A stretch of DNA of 53,063 bases from Treponema sp. (lineage in GTDB: Bacteria; Spirochaetota; Spirochaetia; Treponematales; Breznakiellaceae). The stretch's first letter is position 1. Every line of letters begins with the position of its first letter. This document shows, one piece after another, positions 9,947-36,728 of the stretch. The notes beneath the pieces were generated by a model, which saw only the letters and a program-made list of their open reading frames with translations, was not told the DNA's origin and made no database searches. The stretch covers positions 1 through 53,063 of the forward strand of contig WQSW01000014.1 in assembly GCA_009787695.1 (NCBI GenBank). Direction: 5' to 3'. The translations under genes and the position numbers were made by a program.

Positions 9947-10018
9947 CAGCCCCTAGGAGAATCGAACTCCTCTTTTAAGATTGAGAATCTCATGTCCTAA
10001 CCGATAGACGAAGGGGCC
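9947..10018 (-). tRNA. tRNA-Glu (anticodon CTC)
   Basis: The minus strand folds as a complete cloverleaf: acceptor GGCCCCT paired with AGGGGCT (one G-U at the end), D-arm around TCGGTTAGGA, anticodon stem TGAGA/TCTTA with loop TTCTCAA giving anticodon CTC, and T-arm AGGAG-TTCGATT-CTCCT. No CCA is encoded. The hicA remnant begins immediately downstream. Confidence 0.93.
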
Positions 10019-31578: not shown

Positions 31579-33645
31579 TTATCTGTTTCCGCGGTTTTGC
31601 TGGTTAAAATTATCAAGAGAAGTAGACATAGATTCCATCCTTGCATAAGCCGATTCCATTCTTGCAAATTGGATGCGTAATTCCTGTTCCTTTGCAGCTA
31701 ACTGGCGGTCTAATGTAGAGATGCGCCTTTCATCCTGATTGATTCGTGAATCTATGGTGTTTGTTTTTAAAGTGACAATACCGCCTGTTTCCACAAAGGG
31801 GCGGACAAGGGCATCAACATTAAAAGCAACCCCTGTATCTGCAAGCATATCCCCTGTTGTATCAGATGCGAATAACTCCCTAATAGCGGGAATTCTATTT
31901 TCAAGTGCGCCGTCAAGTGTTTGTTCGTTAATTTGGAGGTATCCCCTAAGACGCGAAGCATCGTAGCCTGTGTTTCTATCCGCATTTGTGCTGATGCCGA
32001 TCTGGGCAAGCAATGAAAGATCGCGTTCCATGTGTGTAGGGTAGGGGGCGGATACAGTCCGCATAAGGTTGTTTTTTAAAGTATTTAATGTAACATCCCC
32101 GCCGAATGCGCCTAACCTTCTTCTCATTTCGTCTGCTTCTTCTCTTGATAAATAGGTTAATTCGTCAATAAGCCGTGAATCCCCTCTTGATTGCGAAGTC
32201 ATATCGGGTGCGCTTACGTTCCCCCTTGTACTTGTAAGGATATTTATTTCTGCAATAAGACGGTTGTAGTTTCCTACAAATGCAATTATCGCATCTTTTA
32301 CGCTTTCCGTATTACCCCGTATATTTAAATTGACAGGGCGATCTGATACGCCTTTTAAATTCAATGTAACGCCGGGGATAAGATCGTCAATATTATTTGT
32401 AGTGCGTTTAATTTCTATCCCTTCCATAGAGATGATTGCATCCCGCGCCGAAGATACCGCGTTTAAAGGTTTTAATCCGCCTGCTATAGACGGGTCAATT
32501 ACATCGATTTTTCCTACAGACACTTCGCGGTGTGTATTGTTGTTTTCTATGTTAATTGAAGTGATGGTTTTTCCCTGAGCGATTTCTGAAAGAGGGTATT
32601 GCCGTGCCGTAAAATTATTACTGTCTGTTATTGCAGGAAGTTTTCTGGAAGAGCCGTCTTGAAAATTAATAGTTAAGACTGACATATCGTCATTGCGGAC
32701 AGGAGCTATAGGCGGCTGCCATTCGGGTGTCGGCGCATGAGACGGTTCGTTTTCTATTGTGATTCCGCCGTAGGTTACGTTTCCGGAAGGAACAACAGGG
32801 CCTGTCGGAGGCTGCGGTGTAAAGAACGCATCGCCTATTTCCACCCTTGTTTGTGTTTCAAGGCGAAGGACTAAAGAGGTGTTTGCTTCTACCGCAAGGT
32901 TTAAGGGAAGGGAAGCAGTGGACTGCGGCGATACTTTTACAACGCCGTCTTGAACCGATATGTTTGATGCATTCTGCCCGCTTTTGCGGATATTATCGGT
33001 GTTAATTGTGATATCTCTTTGCGTGTCGTTTGCCCTTTGCATCATACCGATGTTAAGTGCAAAGTCTAAGGCATCATTTGAAAAGGTAAGCCTGTTTTCT
33101 ATGCCTGTTTGTTTTGCTTCGATTAAAAGCGATCTTGTTCCTGTTTGAACCGATATAAGAGATGCGCCGAGTTTATCTTGCCCTCTTCTGTTTATTATTT
33201 CTACAAAGTCTCTTAAAGTGCCGCCCCGAAAAGATATGGAAATATCATTTTTACCTACAGAAAACGAATAAGTACCGGCTTCTATCCTCATCCTCTCATC
33301 AAGAGGCTGAGATAGAAAGCGGTCTGCTAATGCAGTTTGTTTTACTGTAAATTGTAATGATTGTTCCTGAGCTTCTCTTGTTGTAGTGGCTGTCAGCACT
33401 GTGCTGTCTGAACTGTCTGCAATCCTTTCGTTAAAAGGGTTTTGAAAAGAGAAGAGATGGCGCGCGCTGTCCCGCAAAGAATTTATGCGCCTGCCGACCT
33501 CTTGCCAATATCCTTTTTGGATTTGCAAAGAGTCAATATTAGTTTGTGCTCTGTCCCTGGGAATCCTTTCAACGCTCATCAGGTCATCTATGAGTTTATC
33601 TGAATTAAACCTGCTTCTTACTCCCGGTACGTAAATATCGGACAT
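31579..33645 (-). CDS. fliD: Flagellar hook-associated protein 2 (filament cap) FliD
   Basis: 688 residues from the ATG at 33645, with GGGGGAG upstream; an earlier in-frame TTG sits only 1 nt after that site. The N-terminus SDIYVPGVRSRFNSDKLIDD then LMSVERIPRDRAQ and the C-terminal coiled tail (NQDERRISTLDRQLAAKEQE then LRIQFARMESAYARMES) are diagnostic of FliD, which caps the filament and helps flagellin fold in. In spirochetes the filaments are periplasmic. It follows flaG by 58 bp with a hairpin in between. Confidence 0.93.
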   Translation of the reverse strand: MSDIYVPGVRSRFNSDKLIDDLMSVERIPRDRAQTNIDSLQIQKGYWQEVGRRINSLRDSARHLFSFQNPFNERIADSSDSTVLTATTTREAQEQSLQFTVKQTALADRFLSQPLDERMRIEAGTYSFSVGKNDISISFRGGTLRDFVEIINRRGQDKLGASLISVQTGTRSLLIEAKQTGIENRLTFSNDALDFALNIGMMQRANDTQRDITINTDNIRKSGQNASNISVQDGVVKVSPQSTASLPLNLAVEANTSLVLRLETQTRVEIGDAFFTPQPPTGPVVPSGNVTYGGITIENEPSHAPTPEWQPPIAPVRNDDMSVLTINFQDGSSRKLPAITDSNNFTARQYPLSEIAQGKTITSINIENNNTHREVSVGKIDVIDPSIAGGLKPLNAVSSARDAIISMEGIEIKRTTNNIDDLIPGVTLNLKGVSDRPVNLNIRGNTESVKDAIIAFVGNYNRLIAEINILTSTRGNVSAPDMTSQSRGDSRLIDELTYLSREEADEMRRRLGAFGGDVTLNTLKNNLMRTVSAPYPTHMERDLSLLAQIGISTNADRNTGYDASRLRGYLQINEQTLDGALENRIPAIRELFASDTTGDMLADTGVAFNVDALVRPFVETGGIVTLKTNTIDSRINQDERRISTLDRQLAAKEQELRIQFARMESAYARMESMSTSLDNFNQQNRGNR

Positions 33646-33680
33646 AAACCGCAAACTCCCCCAATAATAGCAGTTTAGTA

Positions 33681-33703: not shown

Positions 33704-34066
33704 TTAGACCATCTCATCAAATAATAGACCGATAGCCTCTTTTAAATTCTCATGTAACCGTTGTAATTCCTCAGGAGGAATCTCTTTCAACACTTTATCG
33801 GTGTCTTTGTCAATTACCTTGACAATGATCTCGTTAGAGCTTTGATCAACTACAAATTGCAGTTTCTTGTTGAAAGCCTGTCCGATTCTTTCTAAATCAA
33901 TCAATTGTTTGTCATGTGCTGAAGATACCGGTTGTGAAGATTGATTTTCCTCAGGTTTTCCCTTTACTTCCGGTTTTGCTGCATGAACAGAATTTGCCGG
34001 ATTTCCCCGAGAATCAGGAATTGATACGGGCGGGATAGGGTTAAATCCCACGCTTGCTACTGACAT
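33704..34066 (-). CDS. flaG: FlaG family flagellar protein
   Basis: 120 residues. The C-terminal 70 residues (AFNKKLQFVVDQSSNEIIVK, VIDKDTDKVLKEIPPEELQR, LHENLKEAIGLLFDEMV) are a clear FlaG match. The N-terminal 50 residues are low complexity (Pro/Gln/Ser). FlaG in other bacteria affects filament length and assembly. It stands between flaB2 and fliD. The leader between flaB2 and flaG (34067-34417) is filled with stem-loops. Confidence 0.88.
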   Translation of the reverse strand: MSVASVGFNPIPPVSIPDSRGNPANSVHAAKPEVKGKPEENQSSQPVSSAHDKQLIDLERIGQAFNKKLQFVVDQSSNEIIVKVIDKDTDKVLKEIPPEELQRLHENLKEAIGLLFDEMV

Positions 34067-34417: not shown

Positions 34418-35272
34418 CTACGAAAGCAGCTGCAATACCGATTGTGACCGCAGATTGGCTTGCGCCAGCATTGCGGTTCCCGTCTGGCTAAGGATGGTTT
34501 CTTTTGTATAATCAACCATCTGGGAAGCCATATTGGCATCCCTGATTCGGGATTCGGCGGCTTGCAAATTTTCCGCTGCGATTGCTACGCCTTGAGCTGC
34601 AACCTCGAAACGGTTTTGATAAGCGCCAAGATCGGCACGTTGTTTTGAAACAAGTTTTAACGCGCTGTCAACTGTACCAATTGCTAGGTTTGCTTCTTGC
34701 GGGTCTGCAATAGAAAGCTTACCTTGATTACCCTGCGAGTCTGTCAAACCAAGTGCTGTTGAAGTCATATTGCCTACATAAATCCTTGCATTCTGATCCA
34801 TGTTTGCTCCAACCTGTAACTGCATTACTCTGCCTGTTGCAGAATCCATTGCAAATGCACCTGTTAACATATTCATGCCGTTAAATTGAGCATGGCTCGC
34901 TACTCGGTTAACTTCATCAACCAGCTGTGATACTTCGACTTGAATCTGCATACGATCTTCGTCTGAATAAATACCGTTGGCTGATTGAACTGCTAACTCC
35001 CTAAGACGGTGCAGGATATCCTGTGTTGTCTGAAGATAACCTTCAGTTGCTTGGATAAAGGACACACCGTTTTGGATATTGCGTTCTGCCTGAAGCAATC
35101 CGCGAATCTGGCTCCGCATTTTTTCGGAAACAGCAAGTCCGGATGCATCATCACCAGCGCGGTTAATTCTTAAACCGGAGCTTAATTTCTCCATGTTCTT
35201 GGTTAACGCGTCCTGGGTTACGCCGAGCTGCCGGTCGGCGTAAATGGCGCTCATGTTGTGATTAATAATCAT
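34418..35272 (-). CDS. flaB: Flagellin FlaB (core filament protein), copy 2
   Basis: 284 residues. The N-terminus [20 protein letters not shown] then [20 protein letters not shown] and the C-terminus ([20 protein letters not shown] then [20 protein letters not shown]) are the paired helical D0/D1 regions of spirochete FlaB, with a short variable middle. FlaB forms the core of periplasmic flagellar filaments and has no signal peptide. GGAGGG precedes the ATG. The leader is a long stem-loop array (35296-35601). It is similar to but clearly distinct from the FlaB encoded just upstream. Confidence 0.95.
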
Positions 35273-35295
35273 ATTCTACCCTCCATGTTATGCTT

Positions 35296-35318
35296 CTGCC
35301 CCGGCTATCCATGCCAGG
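35296..35318 (-). promoter_or_regulatory. GGA-loop hairpin 23 nt before flaB2 start (CsrA-type candidate)
   Basis: In RNA the 8-bp stem (GCCCTGGC with GCCGGGGC, one G-U) carries the loop ATGGATA. The Shine-Dalgarno context ACATGGAGGG repeats the ACAUGGA-like core. Position and loop parallel the flaB1 hairpin at 36571-36592. Confidence 0.5.
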
Positions 35319-35601
35319 GCCGTTCCGCAGGAGCGGTTTCTGAACGGTTCGCGCTTGTCCTGACAGTTGTCAGGTCCGCCGCCCTTCTTCCGCAAACAGA
35401 ACGAAACGGGTCTGTCTGTTATGTCAGACACGTTTTGAACTGCCCCGCGTGAGAAAAACCCATAGGATTTTTCTTTGGAGAGTTATTGTCAAAGATCCCT
35501 GAAACTAAAAAAACAAAAATAGTTTTTAGTTTCTCTTATGCCGGCTGTTTTATAAACTCCGGCAAACACAAAAGTTTTCCAAAAACAACTGTTTCCGGAA
35601 A
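35296..35601 (-). promoter_or_regulatory. Stem-loop array forming the flaB2 leader
   Basis: Eight or more hairpins in about 306 nt: 35296-35318; 35318-35345 (CCGTTC/GAACGG around CCGC/GCGG); 35357-35372 (CCTGAC/GTCAGG); 35402-35433 (AAACG and GTCTG pairs with one mismatch); 35450-35472 (10 bp with one G-U); 35471-35492 (CTTTG/CAAAG); 35499-35531 (11 bp GAAACTAAAAA/TTTTTAGTTTC); 35537-35562 (TGCCGG/CCGGCA plus GTTT/AAAC); 35572-35601 (7 bp, two G-U, 4 bp). I see no sigma28 promoter in the 418-bp gap, so flaB2 may be made from flaB1 readthrough. Confidence 0.65.
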
Positions 35602-35608
35602 ACACGGA

Positions 35609-35672
35609 TGAAAAAACTATCAGAGGAGGGAAGGCTTAATTCTTTTCCACGGTTAGGATCAAACCTCCCCTC
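35609..35672 (-). terminator. Candidate terminator of flaB1
   Basis: On the minus strand AGAGG...GGAGG pairs back with CCTCCTCT-type sequence (35620-35627 with 35662-35671), followed by six T at 35609-35614. The loop is long and contains smaller hairpins, so termination may be partial, allowing readthrough into flaB2. Confidence 0.4.
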
Positions 35673-35690
35673 TAGGTATATTATACTACA

Positions 35691-36570: not shown

Positions 36571-36592
36571 CCGAAAGCATCCTTGCTCCCGG
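36571..36592 (-). promoter_or_regulatory. CsrA-type hairpin with CAAGGAUG before flaB1
   Basis: In the transcript CCG-pair, two consecutive G-U pairs and AGCA/TGCT close the loop AGGA; the primary sequence AGCAAGGATGCT contains CAAGGAUG, matching CARGGAUG of the known CsrA consensus at all eight positions. It ends 25 nt before the ATG, and the Shine-Dalgarno CAAGGAGGAUC gives a second site, a two-site layout like the B. subtilis hag leader. Regulation by CsrA is inferred, not shown. Confidence 0.55.
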
Positions 36593-36700: not shown

Positions 36701-36728
36701 GCATCGGCAGATTTGGACAAATACTTTA
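36701..36728 (-). promoter_or_regulatory. Sigma28 (FliA)-type promoter of flaB1
   Basis: On the minus strand TAAA (complement of 36725-36728), 16-nt spacer, GCCGATGC (complement of 36701-36708), near the TAAA-N15-GCCGATAA consensus. An A/T-rich stretch upstream may be an UP element. The leader to the ATG would be about 150 nt. Confidence 0.7.

Follow-up and report, generated by a model that had tools for sequence, protein, structure and literature searches.

The second flaB gene of the tandem flagellin pair in the 53,063-nt stretch of Treponema sp. DNA analysed here (the window) is preceded by a structured leader, whose core is, by score, a member of Termite-flg (RF01729), a known orphan cis-regulatory RNA family. 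Comparison of orthologous leaders shows that its Shine-Dalgarno sequence would be hidden by a conserved long-range pairing with an upstream anti-Shine-Dalgarno strand. This helix, a boxA element and a revised junction are absent from the Rfam model and constitute the new part of the description. We consider it rather probable that this leader acts in cis to control translation by sequestering the Shine-Dalgarno, with Nus factors at boxA assisting the sequestration and CsrA-FliW reinforcing it. The leader occupies the flaB-flaB intergenic region and would control the second flaB gene, which is followed by flaG and fliD (Table 1). A previous sequence-only reading had labelled this gene flaB2. 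It does encode a second flagellin, but synteny and a tree argue for regarding it instead as the second member of a tandem flaB pair, since in the tree the second tandem flaB genes form their own orthologous set, apart from the first and the lone flaB genes. The tandem pair is the counterpart of the T. denticola flaB1-flaB3 operon, and not of the lone flaB2 of that organism (PMC9481697).

Table 1. Positions in the window of the leader elements and neighbouring genes, with the evidence for each
Feature	Position	Strand	Basis
flaB1 CsrA-type hairpin GGGAGC-AAGGAU-GCUUUC, shortly before the flaB1 Shine-Dalgarno	36573-36590	-	sequence; no boxA there
Sigma-70-type promoter TTGTCA-17-TATAAT at the flaB1 stop codon	35680-35708	-	11/12 consensus matches
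5' hairpin GAGGGGAGG...CCUCCCUCCUCU, then T-run 35616-35611	35622-35672	-	fold z -3.2 and sequence reading
Three variable hairpins (35603-35574, terminator-like; 35563-35540; 35533-35501)	35501-35603	-	folds and relatives' alignment
boxA-like element GAUCUUUGACAA	35486-35497	-	conservation in orthologous leaders
Anti-Shine-Dalgarno strand ACUCUCCA (P1 5' strand)	35476-35483	-	pairing probability and covariation
Local hairpin AAAGAAAAAUCC-UAU-GGGUUUUUCU, lineage-variable insertion between P1 and P2	35452-35476	-	most stable fold
P2 5' strand CGCGGGG (partner 35332-35326)	35443-35449	-	consensus fold
Long hairpin A (GCAG..AAAACG...CGUUUCGUUCUGU)	35396-35443	-	consensus fold
Termite-flg (RF01729) match	35294-35411	-	Rfam, 65.1 bits (gathering 40), model positions 1-106 of 106
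Helix GCGG (35393-35390):CCGC (35336-35333) with hairpin P3 (35384-35345), conserved GCGCGAA	35333-35393	-	consensus fold
P2 3' strand UCCUGCG	35326-35332	-	consensus fold and covariation
CsrA-type hairpin GCCCUGGC-AUGGAUA-GCCGGGGC, GGA in loop	35298-35320	-	conservation
Shine-Dalgarno UGGAGGGU (P1 3' strand), second GGA of the putative CsrA twin site	35278-35285	-	fold, covariation
flaB, second gene of the tandem pair (FlaB, 284 aa), downstream of the leader	34418-35272	-	Pfam Flagellin_N/C
flaG, after the second flaB	33704-34066		Pfam FlaG
fliD, after the second flaB and flaG	31579-33654		Pfam FliD

The Shine-Dalgarno helix and the adjoining boxA

The long-range helix, P1, spans about 190 nt between the anti-Shine-Dalgarno strand and the flagellin Shine-Dalgarno. 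Its probability is about 0.95 when positions 35610-35200 are folded. For the whole predicted transcript the value is 0.4, the Shine-Dalgarno then still being mostly paired, but elsewhere. In the 22-sequence alignment P1 shows one-sided variation only, because the Shine-Dalgarno hardly varies within the genus, and two-sided changes are confined to the wider set. Across 68 non-redundant leaders the strands pair better with their own partners than with those of other leaders (-20.7 versus -17.4, z -9.2, with shared ancestry uncorrected), and a preference for the own partner is also found when the Shine-Dalgarno itself is omitted (z -5.4). The letters just 3' of a Shine-Dalgarno are under no ribosome constraint. 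Here, the letters 3' of GGAGG covary with the anti-Shine-Dalgarno strand, as in GUA/UAC, GCA/UGC, ACA/UGU and CAU/AUG (z -7.4 in 98 leaders, again uncorrected for ancestry, although the changes arise in several lineages).

The anti-Shine-Dalgarno strand adjoins a boxA-like element located directly in front of it. boxA is an rRNA-type antitermination signal that recruits Nus factors, and nusB is present in the source genome. Comparison shows the sequence to be largely restricted to the second-flaB orthologue, with candidate elements in 98 of 110 second-flaB leaders but in only 5 of 111 that precede other flaB genes, and in 44 of 61 orthologous leaders versus 0.1% in shuffled sequence. The motif is not enriched genome-wide (11 matches versus 20 for the reversed control), and thus the assignment as boxA rests on position and conservation.

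The source assembly is without 16S. The rRNA leaders of relatives carry boxA in the form RTTCTTTGGCAATA, GATATTTGAAA or ATTCTTTGACA, about 135-281 nt before 16S. When the flaB form RTTCTTTGAMAA is set beside the rRNA forms RTTCTTTGGCAA, GATATTTGAAA and ATTCTTTGACA, rRNA in this family shows a G at a place where flaB has A. The flaB consensus is matched at 10 or more of its 12 positions in 10 of 28 rRNA leaders versus 2% of shuffles, a moderate match. No covariation of boxA variants between the rRNA and flaB leaders of one genome was seen in three complete genomes, where the fourth boxA position varies independently in the two. The strand right behind the rRNA boxA pairs with the 16S trailer at -38.5 versus -15.8 ± 2.8 for shuffled trailers in one genome, -48.0 versus -23.4 ± 3.1 in another, and -31.2 versus -11.2 in a third example; this leader-trailer pairing is clear in several genomes and not above shuffles in others. 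Treponeme rRNA leaders (for example L132, L133, L144 and L157) also present, after boxA, a conserved AGGGAAGGG-like block, with 16S-trailer pairing in several genomes, and this block is possibly the spirochete equivalent of boxC.

The same arrangement could be read as classical antitermination only, with Nus factors shielding the polymerase from Rho over an untranslated, structured leader of about 400 nt and the long flaB-flaG-fliD operon, and with Shine-Dalgarno sequestration and CsrA acting independently. The established role of boxA, the length of the untranslated leader and a promoter at the flaB1 stop codon all agree with this explanation, which we nevertheless regard as unlikely, given that it does not account for the fixed position of boxA directly before the anti-Shine-Dalgarno strand, the same order as in rRNA boxA and the leader-trailer helix.

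The conserved fold and the Termite-flg family

The 338-nt leader (35273-35610) folds at -123.6 kcal/mol, versus -91.4 ± 5.4 kcal/mol for dinucleotide shuffles (z -6.0, with 0 of 100 as stable), so the excess folding energy implied by the sequence-only reading was borne out; its halves, 35610-35499 and 35498-35273, each reach a fold z of about -5. That reading had also described the leader as a chain of at least eight consecutive hairpins. The minus strand from 35603 to 35298 does accommodate about eight local hairpins, but their geometry is not that of an independent chain, which is ruled out by both the most stable fold and the consensus of 22 relatives: in these, the 3' part of about 210 nt is a closed multibranch domain with P1 as its outermost helix. 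The conservation of stems in relatives likewise extends to this 3' domain and not to the first three hairpins, which are energetically real and are kept neither in sequence nor in number. A strong hairpin is found within 60 nt before boxA in most relatives (mean z -2.9).

The intergenic regions between the two flaB genes were taken from 86 relatives and compared in a plain sequence alignment, in which a TATAAT at the flaB1 stop is followed by the variable hairpins and then by a conserved block, from RTTCTTTGA[CA]AA-ACYCTC through the start codon. RNAalifold, applied to a plain sequence alignment of 22 relatives with no structure supplied, predicted a consensus fold of 46 pairs that contains P1, P2, hairpin A, the GCGG:CCGC helix with P3, and the 3' CsrA-type hairpin, with compensatory changes in 23 pairs. 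In this structure 95.8% of the cells are paired, compared with at most 51% when the partners are slid. By permutation tests that ignore shared ancestry, it has 83 double-change cells versus 20.7 in shuffles (0 of 500 as high); P2, whose consensus in relatives is CGCGGGA:UCCCGCG, has 64 versus a shuffle maximum of 46, and P2 together with the lower part of A has 21 versus 8.0 (0 of 500). Hairpin A shows compensatory changes in 11 of its 16 pairs and an own-versus-swapped z of -13.6. The local hairpin between P1 and P2 is missing or different in relatives. The predicted fold is thus one that comparison shows to be conserved.

The Termite-flg match, the single copy in the source genome, stops 21 nt short of the flaB start codon and so lies in a flagellar 5' leader (Pfam flagellin). 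Matches exceed the threshold in 61 of 149 relatives, every one of them from the same family. The sole other Rfam match in the window is a tRNA gene at 9947-10018 (minus strand). The 2010 description of Termite-flg rated it as a certain RNA, with cis-regulation probable and a riboswitch function improbable, and as confined to the termite hind gut; the main text of that work offers no mechanism (PMC2864571). The leader shares with the Rfam model its genomic place, the 3' hairpin with an A-x-GGAU loop and the inner hairpins. However, in a comparison of about 110 orthologous leaders the conserved element is about twice the size of the Rfam family and differs from its model, which is without boxA, the anti-Shine-Dalgarno strand, the Shine-Dalgarno, P1, P2 and lower A, all of which can be recognised in the leader. 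In T. saccharophilum DSM 2985, as well as in ungulate-gut and other non-termite treponemes, both boxA and P1 occur in leaders that fall below the Rfam threshold, and therefore the element extends well beyond termite guts.

The outer helix of the Rfam model (35403-35396 paired to 35328-35321) uses letters that P2 and lower A also need. It covaries weakly in the leaders, with 96% of cells pairable, 3 double-change cells versus 0.6, and a covariation score reached by 48 of 500 shuffles, and we therefore did not adopt the Rfam fold as the final structure, preferring the P2/A fold (0 of 500). A pseudoknot joining P2 and the Rfam outer helix, whose strands cross, would require a shortened helix, and covariation favours the nested fold. 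The two mutually exclusive arrangements could instead form a bistable switch, with a ligand, protein or temperature choosing between them, a possibility that we judge to be fairly remote. The folds share strands and lie 2.2 kcal/mol apart in the window (-87.1 versus -84.9), and the Rfam helix, besides being largely pairable, has some compensations in wider sets; yet covariation strongly favours P2 with lower A, and P1 forms in both states, so that the switch alone would leave the Shine-Dalgarno unchanged.

Upstream hairpins, promoters and CsrA-type sites

The sigma-70-type promoter at the flaB1 stop codon predicts a leader transcript start near 35673, and a TATAAT-like hexamer is present right after the flaB1 stop in 49 of 68 non-redundant relatives, compared with a 2.8% background in the same intergenic regions. 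A sigma-28-like promoter of flaB1 is seen in the window at 36701-36728 (minus strand), where TAAA is followed about 16 nt on by GCCGATGC, and transcription of the two tandem flagellin genes probably depends on distinct sigma factors, sigma-28-like for flaB1 and sigma-70-like for the second flaB. The first 70 nt of the relatives' intergenic regions have a mean fold z of -3.6. A G+C-rich hairpin followed by a U-run, as in intrinsic terminators, is found both at 35672-35622 with its T6 and at 35603-35574. The former may be the flaB1 terminator or, because the promoter sits just upstream, the leader's own 5'-end hairpin. It ends in CCCUCCUCU, a complement of the Shine-Dalgarno that is kept across the genus and is possibly a second anti-Shine-Dalgarno, a competitor of P1 when the transcript is full-length. 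As for a leader peptide, the coding strand has only short open reading frames (22-47 aa), and length variation among relatives argues against a conserved one.

The hairpins might mainly protect the mRNA of an abundant protein from nucleases. Such stabilisation, already suggested by the sequence-only reading, is possible for the strong 5' hairpin at the predicted start and agrees with the strong overall folding, but as the main function we find it improbable, since it predicts neither the conserved Shine-Dalgarno pairing nor the conserved boxA and GGA loop. Ribosome standby sites, proposed in the same reading, fit poorly with a conserved structure that hides the Shine-Dalgarno and exposes no landing pad. 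That the TTCTTTGACA element is a promoter -35 box instead of boxA is very improbable, for although it contains TTGACA or TTGAAA, the stretch 16-18 nt downstream is variable with no conserved -10 hexamer (which led us to reject TTTGACA as a promoter), the TTC/ATC upstream of it is conserved, and the promoter that is conserved is a different one, located at the flaB1 stop.

The signature of CsrA is a GGA in a short hairpin loop. Comparison shows such a candidate hairpin upstream of the Shine-Dalgarno in 52 of 61 second-flaB leaders (6% of shuffled sequence) and in 59 of 65 flaB1 leaders (4%), loop triplets other than GGA being rare, except for AGG, which overlaps GGA. In the leader hairpin 99.4% of pair cells are kept, and the Shine-Dalgarno ACAUGGAGGG is the source of a second GGA. 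The other two flaB genes of the genome apparently have a CsrA-type hairpin too, as read from their sequence. The fliW and csrA genes are side by side in the genome (C9:51567-52114), and csrA is present in 122 of 149 relatives. The idea of binding sites for an RNA-binding protein is retained in part, as the hairpin together with the Shine-Dalgarno resembles a twin site for CsrA and NusB-S10 would bind at boxA, but a series of such sites is not, the conserved GGA loop being in a single hairpin only. A study of T. denticola reports, without detail, CsrA sites close to the Shine-Dalgarno sequences of its flaB1 and flaB2 (PMC9481697).

In one treponeme group (L070, L074, L076, L078, L168, L170-L172 and L174) the second-flaB loop is AUGA or ACGA and not AUGGA, while the stem, csrA and the Shine-Dalgarno GGA are retained and flaB1 still has AAGGAU. 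This seems to be a natural loss of one putative CsrA site, and as csrA was kept, CsrA at the second-flaB hairpin would not be essential everywhere. One leader (L010, 2757-2835) has an extra hairpin-rich insert between the CsrA-type hairpin and the Shine-Dalgarno, and similar short inserts are found in L008 and L025. Three genomes of family f4 (G118, G130 and G145) gave no flaB match, and G118 and other members of the same genera are also without csrA, which in that order seems to follow the presence of flagellin.

Proposed mechanism and comparison with known systems

In the mechanism that we infer, Nus factors and CsrA bind the leader and the direction of control is repression. During transcription NusB-S10 would bind boxA and keep it at RNA polymerase, as happens in rRNA operons, and the strand behind boxA would thereby be kept ready for the Shine-Dalgarno, which emerges about 190 nt later. 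Pairing in P1 would then close the domain and hide the ribosome-binding site, supported by the inner junction (P2, A and P3), which would draw both ends together. The CsrA-type hairpin and the Shine-Dalgarno GGA would form a twin site, at which bound CsrA would further block ribosomes; as free flagellin takes up FliW, CsrA would be released, so that excess flagellin would shut off its own synthesis.

More tentatively, and with somewhat less than even confidence, we suggest that treponemes reuse an rRNA folding device, in which a boxA-NusB-S10 tether on RNA polymerase delivers an anti-Shine-Dalgarno strand to the Shine-Dalgarno of one paralogue. The transcription machinery would set a translational lock that CsrA-FliW tunes, and Termite-flg would be the core of this device throughout the treponemes. 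Spirochete filaments require several flagellins in set proportions, and the leader offers a post-transcriptional route by which spirochetes could control one flagellin paralogue apart from the others. An orphan RNA family, unexplained since 2010, gains a revised structure and a testable function. A boxA of the rRNA type would be unusual in a flagellar mRNA, and our literature search found no paper connecting them.

The closest parallel to the boxA arrangement is in the rRNA operons of related genomes, where the 5' strand of a long-range helix likewise begins right after boxA. A proposal made for E. coli rRNA is that NusB-bound boxA keeps this strand at the polymerase until its distant partner emerges (PMC10250234). 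In the rRNA systems the partner is about 1700 nt off, whereas in the flaB leader it is the mRNA Shine-Dalgarno, about 190 nt off, and no boxC or boxB has been shown there. The E. coli suhB mRNA also has boxA in the leader of the regulated gene, and its translation is repressed through a full Nus complex, but the suhB boxA is close to the Shine-Dalgarno with no anti-Shine-Dalgarno described, whereas the flaB boxA precedes one (PMC5725501). Moreover, suhB is a case of autoregulation of a Nus factor, while the leader described here belongs to a flagellin. With the B. subtilis hag and C. difficile fliC leaders, which have the CsrA sites BS1 and BS2 and a FliW-CsrA-flagellin switch, the flaB leader shares an upstream GGA site and a GGA in the flagellin Shine-Dalgarno, here in a genome with adjacent fliW and csrA; to this pattern, in which its own CsrA sites are putative, the flaB leader would add boxA and the long-range anti-Shine-Dalgarno helix (PMC8523840).
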